Of a stretch of 62,652 bases of DNA, positions 530 to 57,856 are shown in pieces. The translations under genes and the position numbers were made by a program. The stretch is from the IMG/VR virus record IMGVR_UViG_3300027754_004386, positions 1 through 62,652 of that record. One strand, written 5' to 3'. The stretch's first letter is position 1. Every line of letters starts with the position of its first letter. The notes below the pieces were generated by a model. That model worked only from the letters and a program-made list of their open reading frames with translations, searched no databases and was not told where the DNA came from. The stretch is from a virus.

Positions 530-2290
530 TTATAAAGTCCAATAAACATTAACATATCCACCAAATGGACCATAACCCGCTGGTGCATATTGGATACAAT
601 TCCAAGTTTGTCCTTCAAATGTTACAACAGCACCAATATTATAAATCGTTCCACCATCCCATAATGGAGGTGCAGTTGTTGTAGTTGTAGTTGTTCCTCC
701 ACCACTATTAACACCTTTTATTCTTAATTTACCATTTCCTGATGGTGGTGTGATTAAATTAAGACCATCAAAAAACCACCCTCTAGCAAATAATGAATCA
801 TAATAAGATGTTCCGGCCGATGTTCTACCATTAATTGAAGTAAACGTTCCGTAATCTATACTATGATTATCTAACTGAGATAGAATACTATCATTAGATT
901 CAGGAGTCATTGGGTTACCTGTTAAATCAAGTATTTGTAAATTAACTAAACTTGAAACGTCCAATGAATTTAATTGGTTAGATGATAACCTTAAATCCAC
1001 CAAGCTCGGTGTTAAAGTTATAGATGTTAATTGATTACCATCAACCCTTAAATTTTGTAAATTAACTAAAGTAGAAACATCAAGATACGTTAAATAATTG
1101 TCACCCGCTTTACCACTTTGTAATGATAGAGAAGTTAAACTGGTTGGGAGTACAAAATCTTCAATAGTGGTTAACTCACAACCATTTAATTCTAAAGTAG
1201 TTAAGTTTGTTAAATCCGAACCATCAAATGAACTAATTGGGTTACTACTTAATACCAACTGAATTAACGAGTATAAACCAGACCCACTAAATGAAGATAT
1301 TGAATTATTAAATAAATTTAAACCCTGTAAATTACTAAGACCTGTACCGTCAAATGAAGTTAATAAATTATCCCCTAAATCTAATTGAGCTAAACTTGTT
1401 AAATCTGAACCATCAAATGATGTTAATTGGTTTTCCCCTAAAAATAAGCTTACTAAACTTGTTAACCCAGTGCTGTTAAATGATGTTAAATTATTACTAG
1501 TTAAATTTAAAGTTTGTAAATTACTAAGACCTGTTCCGTCAAATGGAGTTAATAGGTTACCAAATAAATTTAACGATGTTAATCCCGTTAAATTAGAAAT
1601 ATTTATACCCGATGTTAGATTATTAGTTGAGTCTAATTGAATTAGATTAGGTAGTGATGTTTCACTAGTATCAATCGTTGACATTCCATTACTAGATATG
1701 TCTAACGTTTGTAGACTTGATGGTAACAACATATCTGAAAATGACTCTATTTGATTATTAAACAGTTGTAGATTTAACAAAGAAGTTGAATTTGATAAAT
1801 CTAATGATGTTAAAGTATTAGAATTAATTTCTAAATATGTTAAATTCGTTAAATCAGTACCATCAAATGAATTTATTTGATTGTTGGTTAAATATAAGTA
1901 ATTTAAATTAATCAATCCATTACCTGAAAATGAAGTTAATTGATTAACTTGTAAATATAAGGTTGTTAAACTTGTTAAATCAGTACCATCAAATGACGTT
2001 AATTGATTATTAACTAGATTTAAACTTGTTAATGATGACAACCCAGTACCATCAAATGATGTTATTTGACTGTCAGTTAAAGTCAATTCTAATATTTCAC
2101 CACTAGTATTACCATCAATATCACAAGGTATTAACGTAATCTCAGGATTATCAACTGTAATGTTTGTGGAATTTTCAATTATCCAAGTTAAGGTTTCTCC
2201 TTGTTGTATTCTGAAGTATCCATTGGTTGTAATACAACCTACGTTATACATCATCTCACCCACAGGTATTGCTGTTGTAAATGTTGCCAT
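530..2290 (-). CDS. Leucine-rich-repeat tail adhesin with C-terminal carbohydrate-binding-like module
   Basis: The protein has 586 residues: an N-terminal domain (about 1-75) shared with the downstream LRR gene, then about 18 LRRs of 20-23 residues (to about 490) dominated by the motif NxLTSFDGTxL. Next comes KLRIKGVNSGGG followed by a poly-Thr linker, and a C-terminal stretch of about 45 residues (WDGGTIYNIGAVVTFEGQ... ending VYWTL). That tail has the Trp/Tyr spacing of family 5/12 carbohydrate-binding modules. The KLRI(K/R)GVNSG plus poly-Thr block also begins the next gene. I infer a virion adhesin that binds surface glycan or protein. No Shine-Dalgarno is present. The CBM call is by motif resemblance only. 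Confidence 0.8.
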   Translation of the reverse strand: MATFTTAIPVGEMMYNVGCITTNGYFRIQQGETLTWIIENSTNITVDNPEITLIPCDIDGNTSGEILELTLTDSQITSFDGTGLSSLTSLNLVNNQLTSFDGTDLTSLTTLYLQVNQLTSFSGNGLINLNYLYLTNNQINSFDGTDLTNLTYLEINSNTLTSLDLSNSTSLLNLQLFNNQIESFSDMLLPSSLQTLDISSNGMSTIDTSETSLPNLIQLDSTNNLTSGINISNLTGLTSLNLFGNLLTPFDGTGLSNLQTLNLTSNNLTSFNSTGLTSLVSLFLGENQLTSFDGSDLTSLAQLDLGDNLLTSFDGTGLSNLQGLNLFNNSISSFSGSGLYSLIQLVLSSNPISSFDGSDLTNLTTLELNGCELTTIEDFVLPTSLTSLSLQSGKAGDNYLTYLDVSTLVNLQNLRVDGNQLTSITLTPSLVDLRLSSNQLNSLDVSSLVNLQILDLTGNPMTPESNDSILSQLDNHSIDYGTFTSINGRTSAGTSYYDSLFARGWFFDGLNLITPPSGNGKLRIKGVNSGGGTTTTTTTAPPLWDGGTIYNIGAVVTFEGQTWNCIQYAPAGYGPFGGYVNVYWTL

Positions 2291-2332
2291 AGTTTTTAAA
2301 TTTTTTAAACGTTTAATTTTTATTATAATTAT

Positions 2333-2365
2333 TTAAAAAACATCAAGGATCGTCCCCCTTGATGT
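2333..2365 (-). terminator. Rho-independent terminator (minus strand)
   Basis: Read on the minus strand, ACATCAAGG and CCTTGATGT form a 9-bp stem around an 8-nt loop, followed by a run of T. It lies downstream of the lectin-like gene that ends at 2436 and just before the LRR gene starting at 2290, so it separates two transcription units. Confidence 0.8.
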
Positions 2366-2378
2366 AATTTTATTTTAT

Positions 2379-2413
2379 GATATTGGGAGGAGTATTTCAT
2401 CCTCCCTTTATCT
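2379..2413 (-). repeat. Intergenic hairpin repeat, copy 1 (GGGAGGA...TCCTCCC)
   Basis: The stem GGGAGGA/TCCTCCC has an 8-nt loop and flanking complementary AGATA/TATCT-like ends. Nearly the same sequence occurs at 5839-5874 and 6289-6324, each just past the stop codon of a minus-strand fibre-region gene. No T-tract follows this copy directly; the true terminator lies about 15 nt further on. Confidence 0.75.
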
Positions 2414-2435
2414 TTAAATATTGATAATAATTAGT

Positions 2436-4574
2436 TTATGAGATTAATTCTCTAATGTAAGATAAACCTCCACCATTATTTCCACCAGTCCATTGTGTGA
2501 ATTTAACTTTGTAGAATTTACCATCAAGTACATCCAACATAATCGCTTCTTTATTTAACATATCAAGTGGTGTTCCATTATGTACTTGGTACCAAGGAAC
2601 CATTGGTTTTGAATTAAATTCACCACTAATTACCATACTACTAGAACTATAACCACTATAATATGAATGAAGTTCAGATATGTTAATATTATTAATATCA
2701 AATGTGCTCCATATGTTTTCTAAATGATAATTTCGTGAACTGCCAAGTTCAACATTAAAAAACGTACCTATAGGTTCTGAAGCCCAAAGATGATTCACAC
2801 CACCCATAAAGGTATTGGCGTATGTAGAACCTTCATTTGAGTTAAATAAACCTTGGGTGTTACCACGTTTCAATTTTAAATAAGATGATATAACATCAAC
2901 ATCGGTACCATAGTTAGCCTTTTTAAACACTTTAACAGTTTGAGGTTGGAATGGTGTTGTGTAAACGTAAGGTACTGTTCCATCTACCGCTGTTATAGAC
3001 CCATCATTAGCAAAACCACCACCAGGTATTAAACCATTAATAATGATTATGTTAGTGTCAGTACCACCAGTTCCGATAGCAACGTTTGGTGTCGTTATTA
3101 AATGTTTATCACCATCAGTTCCAAGATAATATGCTTTACTTCCAACACTAAGTGGACCTTCAACTATGATAGTTGTTGTTCCATCCCAATCAGTAGTGCC
3201 CGTTAATTTCTCGGTAAATTTTACACCATAAATAGGGTCATAAGAATACAAGTCATAAGGGTTTGTTGTTGTAGTTGTTGTAGTCGGTTCAACATAATCA
3301 TTAACATAAGTCAATGTAAACATACTACCAATGTTAGTGATAACACCGTCAGTAATAATAAACGAGTAATCAGGGTTACCCATTTCATCACCAACTAATG
3401 GAATATGTGTTGGTATGTTTAGGCTAATGTTTAATAATTGTTTAACACCATTAGTATCCAAGAAATAGATTTCTTTACCTACTACCATATCACCATTTAC
3501 GACAAAATTAGTCGTACTAACCCATGGGTTTTGATAAGTTAATGAATTCGCCGCGGCATATTGCCCAATCCACTGATTTATATAGTTACCTGACGTTGAT
3601 GGGTCATATCCCGATAGACTATAAATTTTATCAACAGGTGAAGTTGTGGTAGTTGTTGTTGGAGCTTCAGTAGTAGTTGTAGTTGTTGTTGGAACAACCA
3701 TTCCATTCATACACAATACACCAATTTCATACGGACTTAACACTTTATCAAATAGCTTAATACTGTTTAAGTAACCATTTAATAATCGGTCACCACCAAA
3801 TGGTTGATTACCGAACATTGTGTTATTACCATATCCATTATACGAACCATAACCTTGTACGTCTAGACCTCCATTAACATAGATTTGTTTTAATCCATTT
3901 TCTTTATTGAAACAATATGTGATGTTATACCACACACCATTAGAAAGTACTGAATTACCAACCAAATCGTCATTCCAAAACGCCATCACAGGATGTCCTT
4001 GTCTTTCACCAAGTTGTAGACCCATACCACTACCTGATTGACCGTGACCAACGACACCATTATCGTTATATAAAGGTCTGTCCACACCATTGAATTTAAC
4101 CCAAGCGGATACAGTCCAAGAACCACCATTCCAGAATGAATCAGGAATTGATGACATATTAACGTAATCATCAATATGGTCAAAAAGGAATACATTATCC
4201 GTGTAAGTTGGATTATTCATTAAAGTACCGTTATAGTTACCTTGTTCGTCAACCCAAGTGTCACCACCTGTGTGATTAGCACCTTCTAAATAAACAACAG
4301 GAATTGATGGAACGTATTCGGTAGTAGTTGTAGTTGTTGTAGGTGCTTCAGTGGTTGTTGTGGTAGTTGTTGGTTCTTCAGTCGTTGTTGTTGTAGTAGT
4401 TGTAGATCCACCACCAAGAACGTAAACACCCGAACCTTCAACAAGGTAATTATCATCCGTTAAATAACCACTAAACTCATCATCAGGTGATTGGGTAGTT
4501 GTTGTAGTTGTTGTAGTAATTGGTATACCACTTCCACTATTAACACCCCTAATTCTTAATTTTTTCTGTGTCAT
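2436..4574 (-). CDS. Poly-Thr-linked tail protein with LamG/ConA-like lectin domain
   Basis: The protein has 712 residues. It opens with MTQKKLRIRGVNSGSG, the motif also found near the C-terminus of the LRR adhesin, and then several linkers of seven or eight consecutive Thr separated by EEP, EAP or QSP. Residues about 93-297 look like a LamG/concanavalin jelly-roll domain (WTVSAWVKF, GLQLGER, IYVNGGLD, LNSIKLFDKVLSPYEI). Further poly-Thr linkers join two related 80-100-residue modules and a C-terminal domain (about 540-712). Poly-Thr linkers are plausible O-glycan acceptors, which matters given the glycosyltransferase island in this window. The role as a virion adhesin is inferred from architecture and position. 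Confidence 0.75.
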   Translation of the reverse strand: MTQKKLRIRGVNSGSGIPITTTTTTTTQSPDDEFSGYLTDDNYLVEGSGVYVLGGGSTTTTTTTTEEPTTTTTTTEAPTTTTTTTEYVPSIPVVYLEGANHTGGDTWVDEQGNYNGTLMNNPTYTDNVFLFDHIDDYVNMSSIPDSFWNGGSWTVSAWVKFNGVDRPLYNDNGVVGHGQSGSGMGLQLGERQGHPVMAFWNDDLVGNSVLSNGVWYNITYCFNKENGLKQIYVNGGLDVQGYGSYNGYGNNTMFGNQPFGGDRLLNGYLNSIKLFDKVLSPYEIGVLCMNGMVVPTTTTTTTEAPTTTTTTSPVDKIYSLSGYDPSTSGNYINQWIGQYAAANSLTYQNPWVSTTNFVVNGDMVVGKEIYFLDTNGVKQLLNISLNIPTHIPLVGDEMGNPDYSFIITDGVITNIGSMFTLTYVNDYVEPTTTTTTTNPYDLYSYDPIYGVKFTEKLTGTTDWDGTTTIIVEGPLSVGSKAYYLGTDGDKHLITTPNVAIGTGGTDTNIIIINGLIPGGGFANDGSITAVDGTVPYVYTTPFQPQTVKVFKKANYGTDVDVISSYLKLKRGNTQGLFNSNEGSTYANTFMGGVNHLWASEPIGTFFNVELGSSRNYHLENIWSTFDINNINISELHSYYSGYSSSSMVISGEFNSKPMVPWYQVHNGTPLDMLNKEAIMLDVLDGKFYKVKFTQWTGGNNGGGLSYIRELIS

Positions 4575-4662: not shown

Positions 4663-5811
4663 TTATGCCCCTGCTTTCGCCTGAGCCGAATTAGAAGTTG
4701 ACACATCACTTATTTTATATCCGAACACATAGATATCACAAGTTGCTGCAGAACCTTCAGATGTTTCCAATACAAAATACATCTCGTTAGAAACAAGAGT
4801 GTTCCCAAATAATTGAATTCCACCAGTTGTAGAAGTTGATTGACCAATTTGGTGAAAACCACCTAATCCTAATCCTAATCTACCACTATTACCAGCACCG
4901 ACCATAGTGTTAATAAAATTATTAGAGTTGGATAACATTTGAAGACTTGACCCATCCTCATCATTTGTTATAGCAATAATTGCACTTTCTAAATATGATG
5001 CAGGTTTTTTATCACCTTCAAAATCTTTTTCTTCCTCATCTTTGACCATAGAATTTGGGTCAATAGATAAGAACATGCCGTTTTCGGCGGTCTCAATAGA
5101 TGTTGAAGCATTTGTCATTAAGATATCTGTAATAACATAAACACCTGACTCATCAAATGTGATAGTTTGTATTGTACTAGGTACATAATCACCCATACTA
5201 ACAAAAGGAACAACAATTCCACTATCAAGTCCTGTGATTGTTACATTTGTCATATCCTCATCAGGGAACATAATTTGCATTTCAGGTAGATTTTCCCATA
5301 CTAAAGCTTTAACGTTAGATGTAAACATAGACTCTCCGCTACCACTAATACCATCACGAACCTCAACCAATCTTACTTGAGCCGTTACATCAGAAACAGG
5401 GAAATAAATTGATAATGTTTCTCCACTAATAAAATTAACGGTGTCACCATAACCACCAACTTCACCGATATTAACATTAATATATGGAAAACTTGTATGG
5501 TCTATATTTAAATCTGCACCTGTAAGTTTACCAATCATTTTAACAGCATTTGTTGCTGAACCTAAATTGTTAACTGTAAATGAAAGTTCATCAACCGCAG
5601 CCTTATTTTGTCTAGCTTGGTCAGCAATGAACGCAAAGTTACCTTCAAATTCACTAACAGTTAATGGAGCACCTTTTGTTGCTTTTCCATTATAAGAAAG
5701 GTCTTTAAGAACTAAAGAATACTGAGAATCATATTCAGTTGCGGATTTACCACCAAAATTAAGACCAGTTGATTCAACAGGAGATAATTGTTTTTGAAAT
5801 AAATAATTCAT
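4663..5811 (-). CDS. Putative virion structural protein, unknown function
   Basis: I do not recognise this 382-residue protein. It begins MNYLFQKQLSPVESTG, lacks a signal peptide and membrane segments, and has alternating beta-type sequence with Gly/Asp-rich turns. A Gly-rich stretch near residues 300-325 (GAGNSGRLGLGLGGFHQIG) and a hydrophobic, Ser/Thr-rich C-terminal third suggest a folded structural protein rather than an enzyme. It lies between a lectin-like tail protein and a SET protein, in its own unit bounded by hairpins, so a fibre- or capsid-decorating role is possible. That is inferred from neighbourhood only. Confidence 0.6.
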   Translation of the reverse strand: MNYLFQKQLSPVESTGLNFGGKSATEYDSQYSLVLKDLSYNGKATKGAPLTVSEFEGNFAFIADQARQNKAAVDELSFTVNNLGSATNAVKMIGKLTGADLNIDHTSFPYINVNIGEVGGYGDTVNFISGETLSIYFPVSDVTAQVRLVEVRDGISGSGESMFTSNVKALVWENLPEMQIMFPDEDMTNVTITGLDSGIVVPFVSMGDYVPSTIQTITFDESGVYVITDILMTNASTSIETAENGMFLSIDPNSMVKDEEEKDFEGDKKPASYLESAIIAITNDEDGSSLQMLSNSNNFINTMVGAGNSGRLGLGLGGFHQIGQSTSTTGGIQLFGNTLVSNEMYFVLETSEGSAATCDIYVFGYKISDVSTSNSAQAKAGA

Positions 5812-5838: not shown

Positions 5839-5874
5839 AGATATTGGGAGGAGTATTACATCCTCCCGTTATCT
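5839..5874 (-). repeat. Intergenic hairpin repeat, copy 2 (GGGAGGA...TCCTCCC)
   Basis: It is nearly identical to the copies at 2379-2413 and 6289-6324 and differs at single bases (TTACAT in the loop and CCCGTT after the stem). It lies just past the stop of the SET-domain gene. Confidence 0.75.
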
Positions 5875-5885
5875 TGTTTATTTTA

Positions 5886-6263
5886 TTATAACCAATTTAT
5901 TGGTCTTTGATTGAAGTATTCAGATCCGCCATATTTTAAATAAATTTCTTCACCGGGTTCAATATCCCTTAAAGCAAAGAATTCAAATATCATATCACCA
6001 CCGTCTCTCCAATCGGCATTGTTTTGATTGTTGTGATTATACAAAGATCCATATCCTAAAGCAACAACATATGTTTGAGTGTTACCTTGTCTTGGATAAT
6101 AGAATCTATAGTCAGATAAAACATCTGAGTTATGTTGTACCTTTAATTTAAGTAGAGGTGTTGTTTCAATGGTTTCACCACTGAATATTTTTTCTTTTGC
6201 AAAAACACCTAATCCTTTATTTGGACTTTCTTTAACTTCAATTTTTGTTGGTACTTGTATCAT
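5886..6263 (-). CDS. SET-domain protein (putative lysine methyltransferase)
   Basis: This is a compact 125-residue protein made almost entirely of a SET domain. Visible signatures are GLGVFAKEKIFSGE (residues 17-30, first SET motif), SLYNHNNQNNADW (73-85, the equivalent of the N-H-S-C-x-P-N S-adenosylmethionine-binding motif) and FFALRDIEPGEEIYLKYGG (95-113, the catalytic-region motif with Tyr). The family transfers methyl groups from S-adenosylmethionine to protein lysines; small free-standing versions are known from viruses and bacteria. The usual Cys of NHSC is replaced, as in some non-histone SET proteins. Position among fibre genes suggests a virion or host-surface protein substrate, but the substrate cannot be read from sequence. 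Confidence 0.8.
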   Translation of the reverse strand: MIQVPTKIEVKESPNKGLGVFAKEKIFSGETIETTPLLKLKVQHNSDVLSDYRFYYPRQGNTQTYVVALGYGSLYNHNNQNNADWRDGGDMIFEFFALRDIEPGEEIYLKYGGSEYFNQRPINWL

Positions 6264-6288: not shown

Positions 6289-6324
6289 AGATATTGGGAG
6301 GAGTATTTCATCCTCCCTTTATCT
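6289..6324 (-). repeat. Intergenic hairpin repeat, copy 3 (GGGAGGA...TCCTCCC)
   Basis: The same hairpin as at 2379-2413, here about 20 nt past the stop of the giant fibre gene and 25 nt before the start of the SET gene. No T-tract follows. Confidence 0.75.
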
Positions 6325-6344: not shown

Positions 6345-9300
6345 TTAGTTTACACCACCAAATGAAGTTCCAGAAGGAACACCATAGATATTGATTACAT
6401 CTGTCGCAGCAGGTGCATTATCAAATGTAACTGTAATACCACCATTTTGGGTGTATGCAAATGACATTCCTGATAATTGTACTAGACCGTTAATGAATAC
6501 AAGTTCAGTGTTTGGATGAACATAAGCCGTAAATGATGTAGCAATTCCATCAGGTGACTCATTGAATCCAACCATTGTAGGTCTGTTATCAATTACAAAG
6601 TTTCCAGTGTTATTTGACAAGTTGTTAACAGATGTTTCTACACTCATCACAGCATCAGATACTTCAGCAAATGAATCAATTGCTGTAAGGTCTGTGTTAG
6701 CGATTAAGTAAGATACTTCGTAAGACAACTCAGTTGCCAATGATGCTTCAGCAGCTTCTGCTCTTGAAATCTCAGAAGAAATCTCAGCCATCACGTCAAC
6801 TCCACCAACTTTCAAGATTGTCTCAACATCAACTTCACCTAAGAATGTACGGATACCAGATGCAGGAGCTGCAACTTCTTCTTTCAATTCAATTTGGTTA
6901 GTATCACCATTAAGAACGATAGTTGTTCCATCAACGTCAGCCAACGCTGCGATTTCAGTTGTTAAACTGTCAGCCAATGATTGGTCAGCAGCTAAACGAG
7001 CTGATTCTTCAGCAGATACTGCGTCAGATACCTCAGCGAATGAATCAATTGCTGTCAAGTCTGTGTTAGCTATCAAGTAAGAAACTTCGTAAGACAATTC
7101 TGTAGCTAAAGAAGCTTCAGCGTCTTGTGCTCTTGAAATTTCAGCTGATAGGTCAGCAGCCAATGATTGTTCAGCGATTTGTCTAGCATAATCAACCGCA
7201 TTTACTTGGTCAATTCTTGTAGATACCTCAGCAGACAAGTCAGATGACAATGATTGGTCAGCAGCTAAACGAATAGATGCTTCGTTATCAATTGCTACAA
7301 CTCTATCAGATACTTCTGTAGATAAATCAGCAGACAATACGGCTTCAACACTTGTTGCTCTTGCAACCTCTACAGACAATGAAGCAGCAGCTGCATCAGC
7401 CAATGTAGTGATAGCGTTGTTGATGTCTCCATCTGCACTTTGGAATGCACTAACGATTTCTGTCAATGAATCTAGAGCAGCTGGGTCAATGTTTGAAGTA
7501 ATGAAGTCGATTTGGTTCTGTAGAGACTGGTCACCTTCAACTCTCATAGATGATTCAGAATCTAAAGCGTTTGTCAATGACAAGTCAGCAGATACTCTTT
7601 CTATGATTTCTGTTTCCAAAGAAGATTCCAATGATTGGTCAGCAGCCAAACGAGTAGATGCTTCGTTATCAATTGCAACAACTCTGTCAGAGATTTCAGT
7701 AGATAATGAATTTTCTAATGAAACTTCAGCATCCATTGCACGAGATGTCTCATCAGCCAAATCAGAAGCTAATGAACCTTCAGCAGCCATTGCTCTTGAT
7801 TCTTCAGCGTCAACATCAGCGATTCTTGCAGATACTTCAGTAGAAAGTGCTGAGTCAATAGATGCGTTAGCCGCAGATAGATCAGTAGTGATTTTAGTTG
7901 ACAATGAACCTTCAGCAGCAATAGCACGAGACTCTTCAGCGTCAACGTCAGCAATACGAGCAGATACCTCATTTGACAATGATGTCGCTAATGAACCTTC
8001 AGCAACCATAGCTCTTGATTCTTCAGCGTCAACATCAGCGATTCTTGCAGATACTTCAGAAGACAAGTTAGATGCTAATGAACCATCAGCAGCAACTCTG
8101 TAAGAAGCTTCAGTAGATACATCAGACTCACGATGAGCAGTTTCAGCCGAAAGATCAGAAGACAATACAGCCTCAACAGACATTGCTCTTGTTTCTTCAG
8201 CGTTAACATCAGAGATACGAGCTTGAACTTCAGAAGACAAGTCTAAAGCTACAGATGCATCACCTGAGATACGTGCAACCTCTTCAGTAGAGATAGCAGC
8301 CTCACGGTCAGCAACTTCAGTGGATAAATCACCAGCTAATGATTGGTCAGCAGCCAAACGGATAGAAGCTTCGTTGTCAACAGCTAATGTCGCTGCACTT
8401 GCCAACGTTGTGATAGCGTTATTGATGTCACCATCCGCTGATTGGAATGCTCCAACGATTTCAGTTAATGAATCTAAAGCTGCTGGGTCTGTGTTAGAGA
8501 TTACGAAATCAACTTTAGTATTCAATGACAATTCAGCACTTGTAGCACGAGATGCTTCAGAAGCTAAATCAGAAGCCAATGAACCTTCAGCCGCGATAGC
8601 TCTTGATTCCTCAGCGTCAACATCAGCAACACGAAGAGATGCTTCAGCGTCAATGTTGTTTTGTAATGAAATCTCACCAACTACTCTTGTAGATGCTTCA
8701 GCAGAAATAGCTGAATCTACAGATGCATTAGCGTTTGATAAGTCAGTACCAATTTTAGTTTCCAATGAACCTTCAGCGGCTGTAGCACGAGATGCTTCAG
8801 AAGATAGGTCAGAAGCTAAAGATGCATCACCTACAACACGTAGAGAAGCTTCTGCTGAATCAGCAGCATTCATTGCATTCTCAAGAGATACGTCAGCTGA
8901 TATTCTTTCTGATGCTTCTTTGTTGATCGAATTGGTTCTAAGAGATACTTCTGTTGATAAATTAATTGATAATGAATTTTCAGCAGATTCTGCTCTACTT
9001 TGTTCTGAGTCAACATAATCTACTCTAGCTGCTATTTCTTCATATAATGCTGTAGCTAAAGAAGCGTCACCAGCAACTCTCATAGAAGCTTCAGCTGAAT
9101 CAGCTGCTTCCATTGCAGTTACGATAGACAATTCATTTGCGATGTGTTCACTATGTTCAGCAGCGATGTAGTTAGCTAATGAACCTTCAGCAGCGATTGC
9201 TCTTGATTCTTCAGCATCAACGTCAGCGATACGAGCAGATGTTTCAGAAGAAAGTCCTGAAGCTAATGAACCTTCAGCACTTGTTGCACGAGCAACCTCA

Positions 9301-10916
9301 ACTGAAAGACTAGCAGCAGCTGAATCAGCCAATGTAGTGATTGCGTTGTTGATATCACCGTCAGCTGATTGGAACGCTCCAACGATCTCAGTTAATGAGT
9401 CAATTGCCGCAGGGTCAACGTTAGATGTGATGAAATCAATTTGATTTTGTAGAGATAAATCTCCAGCAACTCTGAAAGATGCTTCAGCTGTATCAGCGTT
9501 GTTCATTGCAGTTTCTAAGCTGTTGTCAGCTGCCAAACGGATAGATGCTTCAGTTGAATCAGCATCAGCCATTGCTGTTGCCAATGAACCTTCAGCAGCC
9601 ATTGCTCTTGATTCTTCAGCGTCAACGTCTGAGATTCTTGCAGATACTTCAGAAGAAAGGTTGTTAGTCAATACTAACTCAGCAGCCATTGCTCTTGATT
9701 CCTCAGCATCAACGTCAGCGATACGAGCAGATACTTCAGAAGAAAGTCCTGAAGCTAAAGAAGCGTCACCTGATACTCTTGCAGATGCCTCAGCAGATAC
9801 TGCAGATGTTCTATTAACGATTTCAGAAGAAAGACCTGTAGCGATTGAAGCGTCAGCAGATGCACGAGCAACTTTTTCAGTTGACAATTCAGCGGCTCTA
9901 ACTGATGCTTCAGCTAAGATAGCTGCAGTTGCTGTAGATGTAGCGGAAGACAAATCAGATGCTAATGAGTTATCACCAGCAACACGAGCAGATGCTTCAG
10001 CAGATACTGCAGATGTTCTGTTAACAACTTCAGAAGATAAATCAGAAGTCAATGAACCTTCAGCAGCTGTAGCACGAGATGCTTCAGCAGATACTGCAGC
10101 TTCTCTGTTTGCTACTTCTGTAGACAAATCAGCGTTAACTGAAGCGTCACCTGAAATACGAGCAGCTTCTTCCAAAGATACTGCACCTTCACGGTCAGCG
10201 ATTTCTGAAGAAAGATCTCCAGCGATTGATTGGTCAGCAGCTAAACGAATAGATGCTTCGTTATCGACTGCTGTAGTTGCAGCTGTAGCTAATGATGTGA
10301 TAGCACCGTTTAGGTCACCATCAGCTGATTGGAACGCTCCAACGATTTCAGTCAATGAATCAATTGCAGCAGGATCTACGTTAGAGATAACGAATTCTAC
10401 TTTAGTGTCTAATGAAGCCTCAGCTGATTCAGCACGAGCGATTTCAGTTGACAATGCAGCATCGATTGAAGCATCAGCAACACTCATTGCAGCAGCTACT
10501 GACTCATCACCTACAACACGTAAAGATGCTTCAGCATCGATGTTGTTTTGTAATGAAGTTTCAGCAACCATTGCACGTGATTCCTCAGCGTCAACGTCTG
10601 CTTCACGGTTAGCAACTTCTGTAGAAAGGTCAACTGCAAGAGATGAATCACCAGCAACTCTTCTAGATTCTTCTATTGATATTGAATCTTCTAGTTTTGA
10701 TTTTGCTGCTGTTAAAGCAGTATCAACAGATGCATCACCAGAGATGCGGTTAGATACCTCAGTGGACATTACGTCAGATACGTTTGTATCAATGGATGTT
10801 ACAACGGATTGTAAACCATCAATATCCGCAACGACGATACCAACTGGGGCAGTAATTTGTGCGTTGTCCAATATTAAATCGGACTGTCTATTTAAGACTA
10901 TTTTAGTTTCTGCCAT
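6345..10916 (-). CDS. Giant repetitive coiled-coil long tail fibre
   Basis: The protein has 1523 residues, mostly degenerate Ala/Ser/Glu/Asp-rich repeats of the form (S/T)EVSARIADVDAEESRA and AAEGSLAS. These predict a long alpha-helical, probably trimeric coiled-coil rod. Four longer modules (FVISNxDPAAxDSLTEIV followed by GAFQSADG) interrupt the rod, encoded near 10310-10420, 9340-9440, 8415-8520 and 7400-7510. Two shorter YLIANTDLTAIDSFAEV modules lie near the C-terminus. The last 85 residues form a distinct beta-type tip (GFNESPDG, FINGLVQLSG) resembling the C-terminal domain of the 164-residue protein at 11434-11928. The architecture is typical of phage fibres. The long antisense reading frames here are by-products of the repeats. 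Confidence 0.85.
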   Translation of the reverse strand: MAETKIVLNRQSDLILDNAQITAPVGIVVADIDGLQSVVTSIDTNVSDVMSTEVSNRISGDASVDTALTAAKSKLEDSISIEESRRVAGDSSLAVDLSTEVANREADVDAEESRAMVAETSLQNNIDAEASLRVVGDESVAAAMSVADASIDAALSTEIARAESAEASLDTKVEFVISNVDPAAIDSLTEIVGAFQSADGDLNGAITSLATAATTAVDNEASIRLAADQSIAGDLSSEIADREGAVSLEEAARISGDASVNADLSTEVANREAAVSAEASRATAAEGSLTSDLSSEVVNRTSAVSAEASARVAGDNSLASDLSSATSTATAAILAEASVRAAELSTEKVARASADASIATGLSSEIVNRTSAVSAEASARVSGDASLASGLSSEVSARIADVDAEESRAMAAELVLTNNLSSEVSARISDVDAEESRAMAAEGSLATAMADADSTEASIRLAADNSLETAMNNADTAEASFRVAGDLSLQNQIDFITSNVDPAAIDSLTEIVGAFQSADGDINNAITTLADSAAASLSVEVARATSAEGSLASGLSSETSARIADVDAEESRAIAAEGSLANYIAAEHSEHIANELSIVTAMEAADSAEASMRVAGDASLATALYEEIAARVDYVDSEQSRAESAENSLSINLSTEVSLRTNSINKEASERISADVSLENAMNAADSAEASLRVVGDASLASDLSSEASRATAAEGSLETKIGTDLSNANASVDSAISAEASTRVVGEISLQNNIDAEASLRVADVDAEESRAIAAEGSLASDLASEASRATSAELSLNTKVDFVISNTDPAALDSLTEIVGAFQSADGDINNAITTLASAATLAVDNEASIRLAADQSLAGDLSTEVADREAAISTEEVARISGDASVALDLSSEVQARISDVNAEETRAMSVEAVLSSDLSAETAHRESDVSTEASYRVAADGSLASNLSSEVSARIADVDAEESRAMVAEGSLATSLSNEVSARIADVDAEESRAIAAEGSLSTKITTDLSAANASIDSALSTEVSARIADVDAEESRAMAAEGSLASDLADETSRAMDAEVSLENSLSTEISDRVVAIDNEASTRLAADQSLESSLETEIIERVSADLSLTNALDSESSMRVEGDQSLQNQIDFITSNIDPAALDSLTEIVSAFQSADGDINNAITTLADAAAASLSVEVARATSVEAVLSADLSTEVSDRVVAIDNEASIRLAADQSLSSDLSAEVSTRIDQVNAVDYARQIAEQSLAADLSAEISRAQDAEASLATELSYEVSYLIANTDLTAIDSFAEVSDAVSAEESARLAADQSLADSLTTEIAALADVDGTTIVLNGDTNQIELKEEVAAPASGIRTFLGEVDVETILKVGGVDVMAEISSEISRAEAAEASLATELSYEVSYLIANTDLTAIDSFAEVSDAVMSVETSVNNLSNNTGNFVIDNRPTMVGFNESPDGIATSFTAYVHPNTELVFINGLVQLSGMSFAYTQNGGITVTFDNAPAATDVINIYGVPSGTSFGGVN

Positions 10917-47175: not shown

Positions 47176-48885
47176 TTAAAGGATTAATTCATATTTAAAA
47201 AGTCCACAGTCCCATATTTTATTAAAACCTAATTCAGTAGTTAACTCCTTTTCCGTTTTTGATAGGTTAATATTTGGATATCTTTTTTTTAAATTATTTT
47301 TACCAAAAGAAAATTTGTGGTACCTCTTATATCTACCCACTTTAGAATTATAATAGTAATAAGTTGGTTTAACTATTGACGTAAGTTTAAACCCTAAATT
47401 ACTATATAAATTATTATCGGGATCTATAGTCCATCTTCTATCTGCAAAACTAATAATACTATTTGGTGAATATTCTTTAATAAAAAATTTTATGAATTTA
47501 GATGCCAAACCTCTTATTACATAATTTTGTTTAGTTGCGTATCTACTTAATTCATATTCTCCATTTTTATTTTTGGTCATATTTCTTTTTTCATTGAATG
47601 ACATAACTCCAACTAATTCATTCTCATAATAAGCACCATAACATATAGTAGATTTATCTGTCCCTTGAATGTGATTATTATTTAAAAATATTTTCTTATC
47701 TTCATTATTTAGATTTTTTATTATAACATTTCTACCTCCGATCTTAATTCCATTATTAATTTTTAACAAATGTTTAAGTTTTGTTTTGACCAAATCTTTT
47801 TTAGTCATCCATTCGTCCTCAAAAATTTGTATGAGATTATAACCAAGTTGCTTACATTCAATTGTTTTATTTAAATGATAGTTAGAATTCTTACCCATCT
47901 TTTCTGTATGGTAATAAAGACCATTATACTCAATAAGAATGTTCGTATCTTTAATAATTATGTCTATTTCTTTACCATTAAGTAATTTACGATTTTTACC
48001 TTTTTCTGTTTCAAATCCTAAACTTTCAATAAATTCTTTAATTTCAATTTCCCCTTTAGATGTCCAAGTCGGTGTTGCATTTATGTTTGTTTCTATAGCC
48101 TTTGCACTCAAAATTTTTGAAATAGTATTTGAAACTATTTTATGATTTGGGAAATTGAGTTTATAATCCTCTAATGTTGTGTTATGTTTGTGTTTTAAAT
48201 GTGTATTTGAAATTGATTTCATTTTTTCACCACATAGATTACATATGACAAAATTATCTTCATTATTTAATTCATTATTCCTTTCTATTTTTTTTAATAA
48301 TTTTGAATGTAAATGAACATCTTCAGGAAATTTATCTATATATTCATTAATGGTGGTATTATGGACTTTTCGAATGTGTTGTTCAAAACAACCCGTTTTA
48401 TTTAAAGTATCTGATGTTTCCCAATCACACAACCTACATTTTCTACTTGATTTTATTTCTAATTCGATAATGTCAAAATAATTCTCAAACCATTTTTTAT
48501 TATGTTCTGATTCATATTTTTTTCTTTGGTAATTATTTTTTGGGATATTAACGTCACCATATAAATTAATTATGTGTTTGGTTAGCATTCCTGATAAATT
48601 ATTTGGGTCATTAATAATAATCTCAGTTTTTTTACACTTAGCAACTAATTCATAATTGTTTTTTGGGGTATATAATTTGGTTTTACTTGATCCTATATTA
48701 GAACTATTACCTATTTTTATTTGACCTCCTTTTTTATTTATGTCTATATTGTTGTCCTTTAAAATTTGTGATATTTTTTTGTGACCAACTTTAAAACGTT
48801 CAGCTAATTTATGAGTACTCGGTATTTCTGTTTTATATAGATCAATAATTTTTATAATATCGTCATTTGTTAACTTTGTTTTCAT
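47176..48885 (-). CDS. Free-standing homing endonuclease (Vsr/EDxHD-like) with zinc fingers and GNAT-like domain
   Basis: A 569-residue protein. The order is an N-terminal helix-turn-helix (about 8-52), two Zn-finger-like units (C150/C153/H170/H175 and C215/C218 with His near 229-234), and a PD-(D/E)XK/Vsr-like nuclease core at about 278-375 (EIKEFIESLGFE, GKEIDIIIKDTNILIEYNGL, YYHTEKM, LGYNLIQIFEDEW). A GNAT-like domain follows at about 384-530 (GAYYENELVGVMSFNEKRN, SRYATKQNYVIRGLASKFI). This layout is that of phage-borne free-standing homing endonucleases. It sits just downstream of the capsid gene, between terminator and promoter, as an insertion would. Confidence 0.8.
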   Translation of the reverse strand: MKTKLTNDDIIKIIDLYKTEIPSTHKLAERFKVGHKKISQILKDNNIDINKKGGQIKIGNSSNIGSSKTKLYTPKNNYELVAKCKKTEIIINDPNNLSGMLTKHIINLYGDVNIPKNNYQRKKYESEHNKKWFENYFDIIELEIKSSRKCRLCDWETSDTLNKTGCFEQHIRKVHNTTINEYIDKFPEDVHLHSKLLKKIERNNELNNEDNFVICNLCGEKMKSISNTHLKHKHNTTLEDYKLNFPNHKIVSNTISKILSAKAIETNINATPTWTSKGEIEIKEFIESLGFETEKGKNRKLLNGKEIDIIIKDTNILIEYNGLYYHTEKMGKNSNYHLNKTIECKQLGYNLIQIFEDEWMTKKDLVKTKLKHLLKINNGIKIGGRNVIIKNLNNEDKKIFLNNNHIQGTDKSTICYGAYYENELVGVMSFNEKRNMTKNKNGEYELSRYATKQNYVIRGLASKFIKFFIKEYSPNSIISFADRRWTIDPDNNLYSNLGFKLTSIVKPTYYYYNSKVGRYKRYHKFSFGKNNLKKRYPNINLSKTEKELTTELGFNKIWDCGLFKYELIL

Positions 48886-55087: not shown

Positions 55088-57856
55088 TTATTTTAAAAAC
55101 TCTTTAATTCTATCATCAATTTCAACTAAAGCGTTTTTTCCTTTTGACAAATCCATCACGTCTAACTCGGTAAATAATTTGTCTTCTAATATTAAATTCA
55201 AATCATTTTTATTAAAAGATTCAGGAGTTACTCCAGGTTCTCCTCCTGCTGGTGGGGGTGGTGGTGCTCCTCCGCCCATATCACCTAAACCTCCCATATC
55301 AGGTGGTCCTCCGCCAGCCTCTTCACCACCTGCAGGTGCCGGTTCCCCTTCTTTTTTACCGTAAAGTTTATCTACAGTGTCAAATATCCCCGTTGAGACA
55401 ATCACTTGAGCAGTGTTTGTTAGTTCAGATGCTACCGCTCTTTCAATCCTTTGTTGTTGTAGATCTAATCTAATCTCTTCGTCTGAGAACCCTAAAATGT
55501 GTTTTTTAGCCCAAGATGCAGAAACCGGCGCAACACTATCTTGAATTGCCGCAACCGCATCTTTATAAAGAAGTATTTTTTCTTTCCATACCTCAACCGA
55601 AAGAAGATCCGCTTGTTTAGACGGGTTTGTAAGTCCTAATGTGAAATTTTGTAACTCATCCTCAAAACCTAATAAAAATAAATGGATAATCGCAATTTTA
55701 TTTAATTCTGCTATCATACATTTTTGAATTCTATTTATTGTTCTTGCAAAACGAATATCTAAAAGTGATAAATTTTTACCATCACCAACAGCCTCTTCAA
55801 ACCCAAGATATGCTTTTGGAATTCTAAGTGCGGTGACTAGTTTCTTTTGTATATACTCAATATCCGCAATTTCAGATAGGTTTTGAGCTCCTGCTAATGT
55901 TTCAATTGGCATTGTTGCGGCAGGATCCCTAACAGGAATAAAGTAATCTTGGTCTACCGCCATTTGGTTATATCTCATATCTACATTACCTGTTTTTCCG
56001 TCAACAATTTGATCTCTTTTAAATTTACTTGCTACTCTTTGTACGTACGCATCAACATCCTTATCATCCATATTACCCACAAATACTTTAAACACCCTTC
56101 TTTCAGGTGCTCTTGATGTTCTGTAGATCAACATTGCGTCTTCACATAAAAGAAGTTGTTTCCATATACGTCTCGCCTTTTCAAGCATTGATGTACCATA
56201 AGGTAGTTTTCTATCGTCACCTAATAATCTAAAGTGAGCAATTTCCCAAGTATTAAATTCAATATTTTTTTCTTTCCAAGTGAATTTTAACGCATCGTTT
56301 TCCATTTCTTGGGAATACTTGTCAGGTTGGAATTTCATCCCCTTTTCTAATCTTTCAATTTGAATATTTGGTAATTGTTGGCAACCAACAATCCCTTTTT
56401 CAGGATCTAATTTTAAATAAAGAAAATTGTCACCATACTTACAAGTATTTCTTGTCCACATAGGTAAGTTAGAATTAATATCTAACTTATTATTAAAAAG
56501 ATCGGCCAATACCGATTTTATTCTTTTTGACTCTGAATAAATTTGTAAAATATATCCATCTTCATTTGGTGTTGTTGATTCTTCGGCATAAATGTCTAAG
56601 GACGCCGAAATTTCGGGTGTGTTATGTGAGAATATAGTATCAGTTGCAAAGTTTTTATAACCCGGAACAGTTAAATCATATACAGGTATTACACCATATG
56701 GTTCTATTGATACTATTTTATGGTTTAAAACAATTTTATCTCCCTTAGCCGTTGCAGTTGAGAGTGGGGATTTTTTAATTCCGTACGCATCCAAAAATGT
56801 TGACCAATCTTTATAACCAGAACTGGTGATTTCTCGCTGTAATTTACGATAAGAAACATTTAAAGAACTTGCAGTTTTCTTTAAAGTTTTATATTTTCTA
56901 GCGTTTTCAATAATATTATCAAATGGTAATTTAATGTACGCCGGGTTATTTACTCCACTTCTTTTACCGTCCCATTTATACTTACCTTTTCTTTTTGCAA
57001 CTAAAGACATCTTTTCTCTAAATTCAGGATTAGACCAAAGTTTTTCATTATTTAATTTTGCGTGGTAAGAACGATGTTCAGAAATGTTCATTATTTGTAA
57101 ATTTTCAGGTAAATTATTTTTACCATTAAAATCAATATGATGAACTTCTTCGTCTTTATTTATTTTTCTATTATAAAACCATTCGGCAATTATATTATGT
57201 TCAGAAATCCAACCATTATGCCCTTCATTAGAATTACACGTATATACCCAATTATATTTTTCATTATTGTAAAATGATTTTCTATAAAACGGCATCATAG
57301 AATCCCCAGATTTAAGATTCATTACCCTTTCAAATGAACCGTCTCGTTTCATTAATTGGTGTTCCCATGTGGCAATAATGTGAGTTCCATCGTCAAAAGT
57401 AATTTTATATGTCATCTCATCACGAGTATAATGAGCATTTCTTGCCATCGCAGGTACTACCTTTTTTTGATTATGGTCATAAGCATAAGTTATAAATTCG
57501 TATTCTCTACCCTTATCAGCTAACTCTTTAATGGTGATAAAACCATTTGGAGTGGCAATTTTAGTGTCTCCCGCAATGCAATATTCCATCGATTCGTAAT
57601 CATAATATGACGCCAATCTTGTTGGTTCATAATAAACTGCTTGTTGATATAGATTGCTTTCTACTTTTTGCCATTGTTTTCCAAGATACATTGTTTGTTG
57701 AGCTTCCAACTTTTCTCTTTCGTATTCTTGCTTATCAGGGGTTTTTAATAATTCTTGCTTATCAAATTTAAATACAGGTGATTGTTGGTCCAAAGTAGAA
57801 TTTGGTCCAAATACTTTACTTATCCTCTGCCATACTGTTAGTTTTTCTTGTGACAT
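55088..57856 (-). CDS. gp20: Portal protein (T4 gp20-like) interrupted by an intein
   Basis: The precursor has 922 residues. The flanking exteins (1-92 and 413-922, about 602 residues together) read as gp20: LASYYDYESMEY joined to TPEISASLDIYAEESTTPNE, then RILGDDRKLPYG-like segments (FRLLGDDRKLPYGTSMLEKA), RAPERRVFKVFVGNMDDKDV, YFIPVRDPAATMPIETLAGA and AVGDGKNLSLLDIRFARTI. The C-terminal part has a Gly/Pro-rich stretch. The portal forms the dodecameric vertex for packaging and tail joining. The intein must be spliced out for function. The gene lies 44 nt downstream of the terminase gene. Confidence 0.92.
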   Translation of the reverse strand: MSQEKLTVWQRISKVFGPNSTLDQQSPVFKFDKQELLKTPDKQEYEREKLEAQQTMYLGKQWQKVESNLYQQAVYYEPTRLASYYDYESMEYCIAGDTKIATPNGFITIKELADKGREYEFITYAYDHNQKKVVPAMARNAHYTRDEMTYKITFDDGTHIIATWEHQLMKRDGSFERVMNLKSGDSMMPFYRKSFYNNEKYNWVYTCNSNEGHNGWISEHNIIAEWFYNRKINKDEEVHHIDFNGKNNLPENLQIMNISEHRSYHAKLNNEKLWSNPEFREKMSLVAKRKGKYKWDGKRSGVNNPAYIKLPFDNIIENARKYKTLKKTASSLNVSYRKLQREITSSGYKDWSTFLDAYGIKKSPLSTATAKGDKIVLNHKIVSIEPYGVIPVYDLTVPGYKNFATDTIFSHNTPEISASLDIYAEESTTPNEDGYILQIYSESKRIKSVLADLFNNKLDINSNLPMWTRNTCKYGDNFLYLKLDPEKGIVGCQQLPNIQIERLEKGMKFQPDKYSQEMENDALKFTWKEKNIEFNTWEIAHFRLLGDDRKLPYGTSMLEKARRIWKQLLLCEDAMLIYRTSRAPERRVFKVFVGNMDDKDVDAYVQRVASKFKRDQIVDGKTGNVDMRYNQMAVDQDYFIPVRDPAATMPIETLAGAQNLSEIADIEYIQKKLVTALRIPKAYLGFEEAVGDGKNLSLLDIRFARTINRIQKCMIAELNKIAIIHLFLLGFEDELQNFTLGLTNPSKQADLLSVEVWKEKILLYKDAVAAIQDSVAPVSASWAKKHILGFSDEEIRLDLQQQRIERAVASELTNTAQVIVSTGIFDTVDKLYGKKEGEPAPAGGEEAGGGPPDMGGLGDMGGGAPPPPPAGGEPGVTPESFNKNDLNLILEDKLFTELDVMDLSKGKNALVEIDDRIKEFLK
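56621..57580 (-). mobile_element. Intein with HNH endonuclease domain in the portal gene
   Basis: The intein is 320 residues (precursor C93 to N412), 960 nt. It starts CIAGDTKIATPNGFITIKEL (block A) and continues with DGTHIIATWEHQLMKRDG (block B). It ends with KIVSIEPYGVIPVYDLTVPG (block F) and NFATDTIFSHN (block G), with Thr as the +1 extein residue. In the middle lies a homing HNH nuclease: DEEVHHIDFNGKNNLPENLQ, then HRSYHAKLN. Cys1, the penultimate His and the terminal Asn are intact, so splicing should be active. The insertion site is inside the conserved Y/TPEISASLDIYA motif of the portal. Confidence 0.93.

Follow-up and report, generated by a model that had tools for sequence, protein, structure and literature searches.

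It has been reported that the SET protein vSET of a chlorella virus methylates host histone H3, and that in infected cells H3K27 methylation goes up and host transcription is repressed (PMC3089700). For the archaeal Go1-SET, the substrate is a chromosomal protein that binds DNA (PMC3980110). In tailed phages, SET-domain proteins have been annotated in Menderavirus (PMC9025141). We found no dedicated study of phage SETs or of phage lysine methylation in the open literature, outside which most subscription papers lie, and no biochemistry on the phage SET family in the same literature. The "set domain" of PMC3220722 is an Ig I-set domain and was rejected as a SET.

In this study, we analyzed a SET gene in a stretch of viral DNA of 62,652 nucleotides (the window). 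The record, a virus fragment of 62.65 kb, encodes a gp23 major capsid protein, a head protease, a portal and a terminase, all of T4-like type. Matches of gp23, portal and terminase place the phage only as T4-like, and the first 25 kb had no close match among isolated phages. As shown in Table 1, the SET gene lies on the minus strand in the order fibre-like, SET, 382-aa, lectin-like and LRR gene. This agrees with the sequence-only reading, which had placed it between the giant fibre and other virion genes and had described shared hairpins as its bounds. The 1523-aa ORF had no informative family match, and the 382-aa ORF had no family match.

Table 1. Coordinates of the SET gene, its neighbours and the hairpins in the window
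Feature	Position	Strand	Basis or remark
Predicted protein-lysine methyltransferase with a SET domain, 125 aa	5886..6263	minus	Pfam SET, AlphaFold2 model, vSET match, conserved residues
Repetitive giant protein of tail-fibre type, 1523 aa with 11 lysines	6345..10916	minus	"Fibre" inferred from repeats and context
382-aa protein downstream of SET	4663..5811	minus	ORF
712-aa protein, concanavalin-A-like lectin domain and TTT linkers	2436..4574	minus	Pfam Laminin_G_3, E 1.9e-13
586-aa leucine-rich-repeat adhesin-like protein	530..2290	minus	Pfam LRR_4, E 5.5e-40
Hairpin A, fibre stop to SET start, AGATA-AA-GGGAGGA-(8 nt)-TCCTCCC-AA-TATCT	6289..6324	minus	SET-less relatives have the same element after their fibre gene
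Hairpin B, immediately behind the SET stop, a near-identical copy of hairpin A	5839..5874	minus	
Hairpin C, in the gap separating the 712-aa gene from the LRR gene	2379..2412	minus	Its right flank directly follows the fibre-end hairpin in relatives

The SET ORF starts with ATG and encodes a complete SET-domain protein. A Pfam search matched PF00856 over the whole profile (1-105/105) with 48.6 bits (E=1.2e-12), where the curated cut-off is 22.4. Because the full profile is covered at this score, the match is not a chance one, and it was recovered again in a genome-level search. GroES matches in NCBIfam lay far below the cut-off and were disregarded. With the SET protein sequence as query, the closest solved proteins were S. 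pombe Set7 and PBCV-1 vSET (E 1e-12 to 1e-11), and with a profile of phage relatives as query these matches rose to E 1e-24 to 1e-22. Structure prediction, which had been proposed as a check, was run with an input alignment of 43 sequences from the window and the related loci. The AlphaFold2 model had a mean pLDDT of 88.5 and a pTM of 0.81, with low confidence in the last ~13 residues (block means 53-60). In SET enzymes, it is this C-terminal part that lies against the active site. The top structural match of the model was vSET (Z 15.5; 103 residues superposed with an rmsd of 2.3), followed by Set7 and PFL0690c. There were 379 PDB matches at E<=0.001, and those listed are SET/PR-domain proteins, so the SET fold is present in the model. 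The model superposes on vSET from residue 4 to residue 111, a stretch that covers both the NH-motif strand and the EEI..YG segment, which would be threaded together in a C-terminal pseudoknot. These results bear out the view that the ORF encodes a minimal SET protein resembling viral SETs.

We then compared the protein with described SETs. PBCV-1 vSET (A612L; PDB 1n3j, 3kma) is likewise a single-domain viral SET of ~120 aa. It is 30% identical to the window protein and has matching positions for Y52 (in DY.F), GYG/GFG, NH and the KYG/SYG tyrosine, but it belongs to a virus of a eukaryotic alga and has histone H3 as its substrate. Among solved cellular SETs, Set7 (5h6z) and P. falciparum PFL0690c (4rz0) were the best sequence and structural matches; unlike the window protein, they are eukaryotic (putative) histone methyltransferases. 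Closer in identity is A0A6J5L8Y2 from an uncultured Caudovirales phage, which a viral protein structure library lists as a "SET domain containing protein"; it is 45% identical over the fold alignment. The Menderavirus SETs (Moby, Ps15) are also annotated tailed-phage SET-domain proteins, but they are 31-35% identical to the window SET and lack both the His of NH and the C-terminal end. Chromosomal SETs of SAR116 and gammaproteobacteria are small SET proteins as well (about 33-43% identical), but they fall outside the phage group in the tree.

Conservation was examined in an alignment of 44 phage SET sequences. N76, H77, Y111, E106, F95, G70 and Y75 were invariant and Y52 nearly so, and G17, G19, F21, E33, F54, N82, W85 and I101 were invariant or near-invariant. 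From general knowledge of SET enzymes, we take N76-H77..N82 to be the AdoMet motif and Y111 to be the candidate catalytic tyrosine, while Y52, F95 and E106 are presumably AdoMet- or catalysis-associated positions. The window motif reads NHNNQNNADW, as the sequence-only reading had given it. Its departure from NHSxxPN is minor, since NH and the last N are retained and other members share the changes: N78 and N81 stand for the common S and P, with N in place of S at position 78 in 8/84 sequences and in place of P at position 81 in 14/84. The dN/dS was 0.22 between the window and L017, its nearest relative, and mostly 0.03-0.3 in other close pairs; judged from these comparisons, selection on the phage SET gene is purifying. 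As the AdoMet- and catalysis-associated residues are conserved and selection is purifying, the window SET is most likely an active protein-lysine methyltransferase.

A single-sequence search of viral contigs returned no relative of the window SET, and a four-sequence alignment was needed. With this alignment, one scan gave 238 viral relatives, of which 80 were kept. Isolated or published phages have SETs as well, namely Menderavirus phages, an uncultured phage of 735 kb and, as a weak match, cyanophage P-RSM6. The protein had been called unusual in a tailed phage. This does not hold: given the many viral relatives, the SETs of published phages and the annotated Caudovirales protein, sequence comparison makes the window SET a member of a large phage SET family and not a rarity. 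Some relatives carry two adjacent SET genes (L049, L075 and L087), and L036 has an apparent second, divergent SET gene upstream (3174-3557). In a tree that is weakly resolved with only 131 columns, the phage SETs form a cluster of their own, separate from the chromosomal SETs that were sampled, those of SAR116 among them (SH-aLRT 88). Two contigs from Bacteroidota MAGs, L096 (Winogradskyella) and L097 (Fluviicola), sit within the phage group. We rejected them as cellular SETs, as gene neighbours and tree position indicate phage contigs. Such MAG-binned relatives hint at bacterial, Bacteroidota hosts for SET phages, in which histone H3 is not expected.

The neighbourhoods of SET in relatives were varied. 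In 44 of the 80 viral loci, SET adjoins a gene for an SNF2/UvsW-like helicase and heads that operon. In this commonest arrangement, superoxide-dismutase-like and neck-like proteins often follow, and SET is divergent from a tail-sheath module. From its sequence, the 511-aa protein at L030:7195-8727 and its equivalents appear to open with an Fe/Mn superoxide dismutase region. SET stands immediately behind the fibre gene in L016/L017, as in the window, and directly after a tail-fibre gene in the L018-L026 group, where the fibre differs from that of the window. In L028, L066 and L074 a long gene rich in repeats and a gene of glycosyltransferase type precede it, and the remaining loci have it among genes for sugar modification, genes of the queuosine pathway or unknown genes. 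Tail or virion genes are thus frequent next to SET but do not adjoin it in every locus. A specific tie to fibres as a general rule was rejected, since the neighbourhoods vary and most lack a fibre gene.

Elsewhere in the window, a long plus-strand block (14673-41641) has several glycosyltransferase matches, and loci related to the window also carry sulfotransferase and nucleotide-sugar genes. A homing-endonuclease-like gene (47176-48885, minus) adjoins the gp23 gene. The portal ORF (55088-57856, minus, 922 aa) has an in-frame insertion with an HNH endonuclease, which starts with CIAGDTKIATPNG and ends ..HN before T, in the manner of an intein.

The hairpins were then compared with those of related phages. 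The hairpin core, GGGAGGAGTATT[A/T]CATCCTCCC, occurs 3 times against 0 expected, and near-identical copies bound the SET gene on both sides (Table 1). In L008 and L013, the same fibre gene and the same hairpin are followed at once by the LRR gene. The left flank of this junction is the fibre end of the window and its right flank is the flank of hairpin C, so SET and two further genes fill exactly the interval between two hairpin copies. Exchange of late genes at gene-end hairpins would give this pattern. Intrinsic termination of the minus-strand genes was rejected as the only role of the hairpins, because the coding-strand tail is AAUAUCU and not a U run; a gene-end role fits. These results suggest that the hairpins are gene-end elements and that SET lies within an exchangeable late-gene block. 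Five related phage records, which are fragments, gave no SET match. A lysine-containing peptide like KLRIKGVNSGG recurs in different adhesin-like proteins of the locus, at 530-4574 and in L008, L009 and L013.

The position of the gene raised the question of whether SET methylates the giant fibre, its tip or another adhesin from its own operon, and in this way tunes adsorption or shields these proteins from proteases. The fibre-adjacent loci described above speak for this, and the 382- and 712-aa neighbours contain 15 and 24 lysines. In addition, the giant fibre is a mosaic, as seen by comparing L008, L013 and L016. Its first 100 aa are closest to L008, which lacks SET (75 of 100, against 44), while its C-terminal 250 aa are 63% identical to those of L016, in which SET is also present, against 49-56% for the main fibres of SET-less phages. 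The C-terminal region thus co-varies with SET and the N-terminus does not. However, tip and SET may be exchanged jointly because they are adjacent, and travel by adjacency is the simplest reading. The 11 lysines of the window fibre are spread over 1523 residues with none in the last 154 (beyond residue 1369), the sole obviously conserved one, K5, is also present in SET-less phages, and SET more often heads an operon with a helicase. Fibre methylation, as earlier proposed, is thus disfavoured, and we regard the fibre or a same-operon adhesin as an unlikely substrate. Methylation of a host protein or of another virion protein by the window SET is possible.

It has also to be considered that SET has little effect on the phage, as a neutral passenger of hairpin-mediated exchange of late-gene cassettes. 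The lack of a SET match in the five related, fragmentary records and the junction hairpins on its flanks would agree with this, but a dN/dS well below 1 and catalytic residues that are invariant across a large divergence make it very improbable. We give equally little credence to a degenerate, non-catalytic SET fold serving as a binding domain. The NHSxxPN motif of the window is altered and the Menderavirus copies are incomplete, but the window protein retains NH, Y52, Y111, F95 and E106 together with a full-length predicted fold. More weight belongs to modification of host nucleoid, transcription or translation proteins for takeover, as by vSET on H3, which is a narrower form of the explanation that we favour. 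The closest solved structural match is vSET, whose virus represses host transcription; Go1-SET acts on a chromosomal protein; and the many unrelated neighbourhoods suggest that the substrate is not encoded next door. On the other hand, bacteria lack histones, and a late or virion gene position is atypical of an early takeover gene. Host takeover is a serious candidate, though somewhat short of probable.

The explanation that we favour, and consider rather probable, is an active SET methyltransferase that is accessory in an exchangeable adhesin block and acts in trans on a lysine-containing protein other than the fibre. The protein would be a single-domain SET fold with S-adenosylmethionine-dependent protein-lysine methyltransferase activity. 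The substrate lysine would enter a channel beside the invariant Y111, with AdoMet held over the N76-H77 motif, and the methyl group would be transferred. SET would be an accessory gene that follows the tail-fibre gene in a T4-like phage, with gene-end hairpins as its bounds. From the gene order, it is presumably transcribed with the neighbouring late genes. The substrate would most likely be a host protein or a non-fibre virion protein.

Phage SETs have been annotated singly and apparently not studied as a family, and they form a coherent, conserved group with many members. We propose, as a tentative idea that may well prove wrong, that this phage-specific family of minimal SETs methylates a conserved lysine, either in the virion or in the nucleoid, transcription or translation machinery of the bacterial host. 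If true, the family would be the first phage counterpart of the chlorella virus vSET. Since the group is coherent, conserved and many-membered, phage infection may include a conserved step of lysine methylation that has so far gone unnoticed.
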